From assembly GCA_012729555.1 (NCBI GenBank), contig JAAYCX010000012.1:1-64000 (forward strand): DNA of 64,000 nucleotides, in the 5' to 3' direction. Source of the DNA: Acidobacteriota bacterium. GTDB lineage: Bacteria > Acidobacteriota > UBA6911. Shown one piece after another: positions 1 through 18,629 of this stretch (its first letter is position 1; every line of letters begins with the position of its first letter). The notes below the pieces were generated by a model. It was not told where the DNA came from and did not search any database. It worked only from the letters and a program-made list of their open reading frames with translations. The position numbers were made by a program, and so were the translations under genes.

Positions 1-111
1 GTCGACCGCGGCGTGGGGGTCTTCTGCTACAACGCCGGAAAAAGAGCATGCCAACGCGATCGCCGTCAGACACAGAGTCATGAGAGCTGCAAGTTTCAAG
101 CCATTCCTCAC
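1..111 (-). CDS. Partial integron cassette gene, secreted or lipoprotein
   Basis: This frame runs off the left edge, and only the first 37 codons are visible. It starts at a GTG a few bases after the recombination core site that closes the neighbouring attC, which is the usual spacing for a cassette gene. The peptide begins MRNGLKLAALMTLCL, then a short hydrophobic run ending in ALAC, so it looks like a signal peptide with a possible lipobox. No Shine-Dalgarno sequence is evident. Function is unknown because the mature part lies outside the window. That it is a second cassette of the same array is inferred from the attC in front of it. Confidence 0.5.
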   Translation of the reverse strand, partial: MRNGLKLAALMTLCLTAIALACSFSGVVAEDPHAAVD

Positions 112-117
112 TATTTT

Positions 118-175
118 GCCGAACGTTGGAGTTCAGCCGCCCCGGAACGGGGTCGGCTGGGACGACTTGTTAGGC
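118..175 (-). repeat. attC recombination site (59-base element)
   Basis: Read on the minus strand, the site opens with the core GCCTAAC, which also contains the stop codon of the upstream cassette gene. It continues through AAGTCGT, then a GC-rich inverted repeat (AGCCG...CGGCT around CCCCGTTCCGGGG), then GAACTCCAAC, and closes with GTTCGGC. The two outer cores pair with one mismatch. Length, order of parts and central stem match the classic 60-bp attC type, such as that of the aadA cassette as I recall it. It marks the junction between two cassettes. Confidence 0.85.
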
Positions 176-475
176 ATTGGTTACGGAGAACTGGCTGATT
201 TCACTTTGCAACTCTGCTGTAACGCCTACCCATTTTGTATTTTCTGTTATGACTAAGAAAATGCCGTACTCATCTTTAGCTGCCGAGTGAATTTGCTTGT
301 ACCAATCAAAGTATGACCACTCTCTAGGTTTGGGTGAATAGAGAAGCTTTTCCTCGGGGTTCCAATGTACTTCCATAGCAGATCGGTAGATGAAGTTGAA
401 ATCCGTTGAGACTGGTTTCACATAGAGCCTCTCGGCTTTATCAATGCCAATCTCTGCAATGTCTTCTCTATTCAT
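170..475 (-). CDS. Integron cassette protein of unknown function
   Basis: A 101-residue soluble protein with no signal peptide or membrane segment. I do not recognise a family. It is rich in aromatic residues (EWSYFDWYKQIH around residue 52) and has a short hydrophobic strand, YGIFLVI. The ATG lies five bases after a GTTAGGC core site and the TAA stop lies inside the attC core, so the gene fills one cassette of about 360 bp. It is visibly richer in A+T than the surrounding genes, which fits recent acquisition. A regulatory, immunity or toxin-antitoxin role would be a guess. Confidence 0.8.
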   Translation of the reverse strand: MNREDIAEIGIDKAERLYVKPVSTDFNFIYRSAMEVHWNPEEKLLYSPKPREWSYFDWYKQIHSAAKDEYGIFLVITENTKWVGVTAELQSEISQFSVTNA

Positions 476-616: not shown

Positions 617-1051
617 TTAATCGATCAATTGTAGCTGCTCTATTTCTTGCTCCTTCTTTTCCTGGTAGCGGACATACTTGCGTATCATGTCCGCATCCAG
701 CCCAACCGTATCGACGCAATAACCTTTGGCCCAGAAATGATTCCCCCAATAGGGTTTCCTCTTCAAATGCCGAAACTGCTGAAACATTCTCATTGAGCTT
801 TGGCCCTTCAATCGCCCCAATAGCTCAGATATTGATATCTTCGGCGGAACCATTACCACCAAGTGCACGTGATCAGCCTGCACATTCATTTCAACAACTT
901 CGCACCCGGCAAAACCACATATCGCTTGAATACCCGATTCCAGGGACGCCTTTATCTCCCCCTTCAGAATGCGGAAACGATATTTTGGCACCCACACAAC
1001 ATGGTACTGACAGTGCCATATCGTGTGTGATAACTTACGGAATCTGCTCAC
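617..1051 (-). CDS. tnpA: IS200-like Y1 transposase TnpA
   Basis: A small single-domain HUH transposase of 144 residues, the usual family length. The HUH metal-binding motif is seen as DHVHLVV, and the probable nucleophilic tyrosine is in IRKYVRYQ near the C terminus. The opening (LSHTIWHCQYHVVWVPKYR) is highly typical. I chose the GTG at 1051 because AAGGAGG lies six bases upstream; an open frame continues further upstream but lacks family similarity. TnpA cuts and rejoins single-stranded ends through a 5'-phosphotyrosine. No accessory TnpB is encoded. Confidence 0.9.
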   Translation of the reverse strand: MSRFRKLSHTIWHCQYHVVWVPKYRFRILKGEIKASLESGIQAICGFAGCEVVEMNVQADHVHLVVMVPPKISISELLGRLKGQSSMRMFQQFRHLKRKPYWGNHFWAKGYCVDTVGLDADMIRKYVRYQEKKEQEIEQLQLID

Positions 1052-1157
1052 TGCTCCCTCCTTGCGCTTTCGTTGTGGCAACAACTCCGCGCAAAGATAG
1101 CAGTGAGCGGCCTTTACGGCCATTCCCATTCGGGACCGGCATAGCCAGTCCCTATTA

Positions 1158-1176: not shown

Positions 1177-1273
1177 GTTTCCACTTTCATCTAAAATTAT
1201 TAGTGCGGCGTGGCTGGTCCATGTAACCCGGATACGGCAGCCGCGCGTATTAAGTTCAACTTTCTAATGGGGC

Positions 1274-2591: not shown

Positions 2592-2804
2592 TTACGCAGG
2601 AATCTCGATATAGGTAGAACAGCTGGTTCCAGGAGGTACTTCTTGTCCCGCATCGCGAAGACCTTCGATGTGAAATTCGACGGCGCTGCGCATCTGTTCT
2701 TCGACCTCCCGGCGCGTTCGCCCCGCGGCAATGCACCCCGGAAGGTCCGGCGAGTAAGCACTGAATCCCGCTTCGCCAGCCTCGATAACGACTAGATAGC
2801 GCAT
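2592..2804 (-). CDS. HicB-like antitoxin domain protein
   Basis: A 70-residue protein with the short HicB-type fold: the opening RYLVVIEAGEAGFSAYSPDLPGC is the standard HicB N-terminal pattern, followed by an amphipathic helix region (TRREVEEQMRSAVEFHIEGL). HicB proteins normally neutralise the HicA mRNA interferase. Here no hicA is found on either side, and the gene follows the DUF2442 gene by 37 bp on the same strand. AAGGAG lies upstream of the ATG. It has no DNA-binding domain extension. It is either an orphan or partnered with the DUF proteins. Confidence 0.75.
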   Translation of the reverse strand: MRYLVVIEAGEAGFSAYSPDLPGCIAAGRTRREVEEQMRSAVEFHIEGLRDAGQEVPPGTSCSTYIEIPA

Positions 2805-2841
2805 CGTCCTGCTCCTTGTTCTTGAGACCAGCCTGCGGGGT

Positions 2842-3186
2842 TCAGCGATCCGCTTTTTTTATGCATCCGCTGGAGCGGGTTGTGAGGGGAGCGGCCCGGC
2901 CGCTGAGCCATTTTTTGAAGGAGGATTGGGTTTCCCCGGAGCACCTGCCTTCCAGCAGCCCCCCCACGCTGATATCTTCGTCCAGATTTTCCCAGTGAAT
3001 CCCCTGCCCCTTGCCGATCAGCCTCCAGTTCAGCCTCTCCTCATGGGTCGAATGCAGGAGGCGGGGGAACCACGCCAAGGGGACGGAAATGGTGCGGCCG
3101 TCGCGGAGGTCCACACGGAGGGTATCGTCGGTCACCTTGACGTTTTCGGCTATCGGTGGCTCGATTTCATGCGCCAAAGTATTCAT
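2842..3186 (-). CDS. DUF2442 family protein
   Basis: A 114-residue protein whose first 75 residues match DUF2442: VTDDTLRVDLRDGRTISVPLAWFPRL, then NWRLIGKGQGIHWENLDEDISV. The last 35 residues are basic and not part of the family, so they may be a divergent tail. Its start overlaps the end of the DUF4160 gene by 20 bp and has AAGGAGG upstream, which implies translational coupling. DUF4160-DUF2442 pairs are common in mobile regions and have been suggested to be toxin-antitoxin-like. I know of no settled biochemical function. Confidence 0.8.
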   Translation of the reverse strand: MNTLAHEIEPPIAENVKVTDDTLRVDLRDGRTISVPLAWFPRLLHSTHEERLNWRLIGKGQGIHWENLDEDISVGGLLEGRCSGETQSSFKKWLSGRAAPLTTRSSGCIKKADR

Positions 3187-3403
3187 TCCATGCCTCCTTC
3201 AGGCGCCTTTGGTTTCTTTCGGTGATTCTCAGGATTTGATTGATTTCAATCCTGCCGAATCCTTCGCTACTTTCCAATTCTATGGGATCCAACCAGATCT
3301 TGGCAATCTTGTTGTCTCGCTCGATGTGAATATGCGCCGGTTCGCCACCATCGCCAGAATAGAAAAAGAATCGATAGGATCCATGCCTGAGTATTGTTGG
3401 CAT
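3167..3403 (-). CDS. DUF4160 family protein
   Basis: A 78-residue protein with the DUF4160 pattern: MPTILRHGSYRFFFYSGDGG, the diagnostic EPAHIHIERD, and KIWLDPIEL further on. It is the first gene of the three-gene minus-strand operon, with GGAGG seven bases before the ATG. The family is usually encoded beside DUF2442, as here. The role is unproven; a toxin-like partner is inferred from context only. Confidence 0.82.
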   Translation of the reverse strand: MPTILRHGSYRFFFYSGDGGEPAHIHIERDNKIAKIWLDPIELESSEGFGRIEINQILRITERNQRRLKEAWNEYFGA

Positions 3404-18397: not shown

Positions 18398-18629
18398 TAC
18401 GTTCTCTGAAATGTGACAGGGGTGCCCCGCACGGGGGTAAAAGGGAAGTGGGTGAAAGTCCCACGCGGTCCCGCCACTGTAATCGGAAAGCCGGCATCTG
18501 CGGCCAAGCAGATCCATAGCGCCCGCCACTCGTTGACATCGAACGGGGAAGGCGAGATGCCCGGCGTCGACCCGAAAGCCAGGAAACCTGCCTCGTCACC
18601 TGTTTCAGTACGCTCTTCGCGAGAAAGAG
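18398..18629 (+). promoter_or_regulatory. Cobalamin riboswitch
   Basis: The leader carries the conserved AdoCbl-type core: GGGAAGTGGGTGAAAGTCCC (18443-18462), the B12 box GCCACTGT at 18473-18480, and GCCAGGAAACCTGCC at 18578-18592. The outer stem can form between CTGAAA...CAGG near 18406-18420 and CCTGTTTCAG at 18599-18608. A short hairpin at 18613-18629 (CTCTT / AAGAG) would bury the AAGAGA ribosome site of btuF, which suggests control of translation start. Bound cobalamin should lower expression of the uptake genes. Confidence 0.92.

Follow-up and report, generated by a model that had tools for sequence, protein, structure and literature searches.

The window analysed here is a stretch of 64,000 nucleotides from an uncultured member of the Acidobacteriota. 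Its left end carries the parts of a complete integron: an integrase gene, an attI site and an attC array that comprises a whole cassette and the beginning of another. The integrase gene, the cassette open reading frame (ORF) and the attC all lie on the minus strand, with intI upstream of the cassettes, as in a reverse integron. The intI gene (1274-2371) is full length and encodes 365 amino acids. Its product scores 476 bits against TIGR02249 (cut-off 265), the sole match above the cut-off in this genome, and it matches Vibrio IntI4 (2A3V) with E 7e-93 and the catalytic motifs aligned. Small genes lie beside intI at 2592-3403 on the minus strand (DUF2442, DUF4160 and a 70-aa ORF that is HicB-like by eye), and the Rfam scan reports a cobalamin riboswitch at 18403-18608 (98.7 bits).

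The attI core occupies about 480-512 on the minus strand and reads ACAGAACTGTCTAATTGCTA followed by GTTAGGC. The motif recurs between intI remains and the first cassette at two other loci, on contig C95 of the same genome (L091:1575-1590) and in the sister species G008 (L094:2236-2251). The sequence ACAGAACYGTCTAAWNG...GTTA is conserved in C95 and in G008 contig C146, and an attI beside intI is found at three loci in two species. In the window the two are separated by an IS200/IS605-family insertion on the minus strand (513-1190, approximate limits), which has hairpins near both ends and encodes the Y1 transposase TnpA (617-1129, minus strand; NF033573 147.8 bits, PF01797). The homologous interval is uninterrupted in C95 and in G008 C146. 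The remaining interval between intI and the insertion (1192-1273, minus strand) is conserved in the C95 relic, with 73% identity to C95:1593-1681. The insertion may affect expression.

An initial annotation of the sequence had placed a 58-bp attC with the stem AGCCG...CGGCT at 118-175, and the present analysis confirms it, on the minus strand. Read on that strand, the site follows the order R''-spacer-L''...L'-spacer-R', with complementary boxes R'' (5'-GCCTAAC, 175-169) and R' (GTTCGGC, 124-118) and a central stem in which L'' and L' read CAGCCG-A-CCCC...GGGGCGGCTG. The unpaired extra L'' base of an attC sets the bottom strand as the substrate; here it is present as an unpaired A in GCCGAC/GGCGGC of the minus-strand reading, both in the fold and in the R2 alignment. 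Two covariance models were used. R1 was built from 14 attCs, 118-175 among them, and gives 70.5 bits at a site on which it was trained, whereas R2 is independent, being built from 11 attCs (nine from plasmids and two from the sister species) without 118-175. The R2 match spans the full model (1-60 of 60) and scores 56.0 bits on the minus strand (E 2.1e-12, 88 kb searched) against 13.1 bits on the plus strand, and the plus-strand reading was dropped. Far from falling below threshold, the annotated site is well supported.

In the 14-member alignment, paired cells amount to 91.7% and the covariation score was reached by none of 500 shuffles; folding of the site as single-stranded DNA gives z values of -3.7 and -4.7 against shuffles for the two strands. 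Hairpins rich in G+C are common in a genome of 67% G+C, and the site could in principle be a chance hairpin or a rho-independent-like structure; the independent R2 score and its strand asymmetry, the overlap of R'' with the ORF stop, and the adjoining integron integrase and attI make this extremely improbable. Nor does the site behave as a non-integron repeat, since the first 300 bases of the window match the genome once, at themselves. An Rfam scan at gathering thresholds returned no match at 118-175; as no attC family was noticed in it, this result has no bearing on the attC reading. A genome scan with R1, in which 150 of 5133 candidates were scored, recovered the site together with two other attCs. 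Judged by its sequence, 118-175 is a genuine attC.

The annotation had also remarked that the closing box, GTTCGGC, departs from GTTRRRY by one base. The departure is real in situ, but it is probably no defect of the attC, because the last six bases of the box start cassette 2. Within an array, the final six bases of an attC come from the next cassette, and here R' bases 123-118 are contributed by cassette 2. Cassette 1 itself is a 362-bp unit on the minus strand (124-485), bounded by G^TT crossovers at 486/485 and 124/123, and its own 5' box, GTTAGGC (486-480), complements R'' GCCTAAC exactly. The case illustrates how an R' that looks 'non-consensus' within an array can arise when bases of two adjacent cassettes are read as one site. 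According to a passage of PMC4909258, both boxes are fully complementary in 51 of 58 cassettes.

The ORF of cassette 1 (170-475, minus strand) encodes a protein of 101 amino acids, and its TAA stop falls within R''. The protein belongs to the Hfx_Cass5 family (PF18287, E 3.4e-26) and aligns with PDB 3IF4 over 95 residues (E 5.5e-24), with which it shares the family and a conserved P-x-PREW linker; 3IF4 differs in its origin, sewage-outfall cassette PCR, as given in a passage of PMC3548836. Named genome contigs hold five relatives with 43-57% identity, from Desulfobulbaceae, Mucilaginibacter (twice), Chitinophagaceae and Maribacter, and one of 72,556 plasmid records holds a relative. At 42%, the G+C content of the ORF lies below the host median of 68% and below the lowest value, 50.7%, among 401 equal-sized windows. 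Cassette 2 (1-123, minus strand) is incomplete. Its translation gives the first 37 codons of an ORF that starts at a GTG at 111, has an N terminus resembling a signal peptide and is cut off by the contig end; contig C12 of this 98-contig genome begins at position 1 of the window, and the array stops 123 bp into the cassette.

The resemblance to attCs of mobile integrons, which the annotation had proposed, holds, and the site is much like those of gammaproteobacterial plasmids. BLAST of the site against the 72,556 plasmid records gave 27 matches, seven of them covering 80% or more of its length, and in all five records opened the match sits in a cassette array. Two of these have intI1 annotated, and the other three have, one each, a truncated integrase, an annotated recombinase and attC sites only. 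The single match in 5,426 E. coli genomes is the plasmid already found, and the exact 22-base pattern of the left arm was absent from the viral contigs searched. Similarity was expressed as matches per alignment column; raw matches over 58 were set aside as biased toward long attCs. The best plasmid match (50 of 59 columns, 0.85) is the attC of a DUF4288 cassette on Acinetobacter lwoffii pR4WN_12CE1 (NZ_MT742180.1). Both of its arms are nearly identical to those of 118-175, spacers included, while the terminal loop, the outer boxes and the cassette gene differ, and the integrase of the plasmid is truncated. Two gcuX-like attCs agree in 47 of 60 columns (0.78), the qacG2-array attC in 44 of 60, and the attC of aadA5, the sole aadA allele compared, in 37 of 60 (0.62). 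Set beside the A. lwoffii match, this last figure does not support the 'aadA-type' label that the site had been given. The class 1 integron attCs (qacG2 array, gcuX-like, catB3 and aadA5) have the same architecture and size (57-60 bp), but unlike 118-175 they are found on mobile integrons with a divergent intI1.

The short length had been taken to set the site apart from the attCs of chromosomal arrays. Length is no argument here, since short attCs are the norm for the genus: of the 16 measured in the sister species G008, 15 are 60-68 bp. These sites also lend some weight to the view that 118-175 is a native attC of the lineage and that its likeness to plasmid sites is a convergence of short attC structures. 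Median identities of the site to short attCs are close as well (plasmid 0.64, genus 0.60, class 0.61), in a comparison whose plasmid set was chosen for its resemblance to 118-175. We nevertheless consider a native origin rather unlikely, given that the plasmid pair at 0.85 ranks fourth among the 528 pairs that 33 short attCs form (95th percentile 0.77), that identity is at most 0.55 to the three other scored sites of its own genome, and that the cassette 1 ORF is AT-rich. To 16 G008 sites the identity is at most 0.70, and to 19 sites of the class at most 0.73. Exchange with a wider pool, as the annotation had suggested, thus appears likely for cassette 1 and is made plausible by the low G+C content of the ORF and by a protein family known from environmental cassette PCR, with the argument from length removed.

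The likeness to class 1 cassettes could also reflect a recently arrived mobile integron of class 1 type in place of a resident chromosomal one. No plasmid-encoded integrase among the matches listed exceeds 63% identity to IntI, and the IntI1 matches listed stand at about 50-53%, so that the near-identical IntI1 of a mobile class 1 integron is not what the window encodes. This attI and remains of intI are also present at other places in the genome and in the sister species, and the layout is reversed; a recent arrival is accordingly very improbable, and the platform reads as an ordinary resident integron of the chromosome.

Contig C95 carries a second integron relic (L091:1031-1790). Of its intI only the C-terminal tail is left; the locus also holds an attI that is intact and one or more cassettes bearing an attC. 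The cassette ORF (L091:1090-1569) and the attC (L091:1031-1095, R2 37.2 bits) are on the minus strand, and C95 also holds an RDD-family ORF. Contig C63 (L092) has further cassettes without intI, and a cassette-like ORF at L092:2766-3190, TIR-domain-like by eye, is broken by a stop. In G008 (L049, L093-L096), R1 gives 21 attC matches distributed among several contigs, one of which has a degenerate intI and another an intI tail and attI; these loci read as a decaying integron in a congener.

A survey of 60 genomes found intI above the cut-off in 13, at 16 loci (counted from the matches listed). Layout was compared at 16 loci, 15 fetched intI regions and the window, with R1 attCs accepted at E <= 0.001. 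Thirteen loci have R1 attCs and three do not. In 11 of the 13, the window included, attCs lie solely downstream of intI on the same strand, which makes the reverse order the commonest layout among the sampled loci of the phylum. The two others are contig C57 of G016, where same-strand attCs flank intI on both sides, and G051, which has the classical divergent layout. The reverse layout itself has already been described, in a passage of PMC4909258, and a passage of PMC9668308 states that typical Spirochaetota IntIs are generally laid out in this way. Compared with reverse integrons of the Treponema denticola type, as that part of PMC4909258 presents them, the window shares an integrase gene oriented with the cassette array; it differs in that its host belongs to another phylum and in the IS between intI and attI.

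At attI/attC junctions of this genome, and also in other families of the phylum, we observed a non-coding element of some 150 bp with a strong fold. Its place is precisely from attI (or the spacer of an attC) to the GTT crossover that follows; it starts with [G]ATGGCGCGGACGC and ends immediately before GTT. Its own boxes, GATGGCG and CGCCATC, pair as a hairpin in which the core GTT has become GAT and the matching AAC has become ATC, and the fold of a site containing it (the C63/C95 repeat) has z -13. BLAST found three copies in this genome (C63, L092:218-367 and 2012-2161; C95, L091:378-494); outside it, copies were noted at L064:1319-1469, L136:9103-9253 and, with a GTT/AAC core, L137:4121-4220. 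An attC-like site (L118:8376-8444, 19.5 bits), with which a viral contig from IMG/VR ends, is followed by another copy (L118:8438-8556), which lies inside the attC.

A model of the element, R3, was run on 396 genomes of the phylum with filters made stricter (in the rows listed, 7 candidates were scored for each genome) and matched in seven. Besides the viral copy, the convincing ones outside this genome are those in G017, at attI on C134 and C204 and, in shortened form, inside attCs on C172 and C107, and those at attI in G157 and in G379, the last with the boxes GTTGGCG...CGCCAAC; G376 has a degraded copy followed by GTT. In G017 C134, G157 and G379 it comes directly after intI. A GTT follows all seven copies with a readable right end, the truncated C95 copy, which is not followed by one, being set aside. 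Two sets of matches were left out: that in G049 (L121) looks like chance, and those in G007 are not clearly at GTT junctions. The plasmid search gave no copy, and a literature text search, itself weak evidence, found no description of the element. The best account of the box pairing and position is an ORF-less mini-cassette; we tentatively suggest that in reverse integrons such mini-cassettes may come first behind intI, where the altered core might lock them in place. A transposon-like element that targets attC and attI is a rival to this account. If confirmed, mini-cassettes would offer a natural test of how far IntI tolerates changes at the crossover bases.

Taken together, 118-175 is very probably the 3' attC of the first cassette in a chromosomal integron with reverse layout, a reading based on sequence, layout, the covariance score, box complementarity and the conserved attI. 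The order would run from an integrase gene reading toward the array, through attI, cassette 1 (Hfx_Cass5), attC and cassette 2, to the contig break. By the known chemistry, the bottom strand of the attC would fold, and IntI would cut between A and C of R' and join attC to attI; on excision a circle would form that brings GCCTAAC opposite GTTAGGC, to which it is exactly matched. Present-day activity of the integron, and the direction and time of transfer, are matters that we infer. The capture of cassette 1 was probably from a pool of cassettes that other bacteria share, and it ties this uncultured host to the environmental pool. For the reverse integrons of the phylum, the locus adds a complete attI-cassette-attC case with its own box complementarity.
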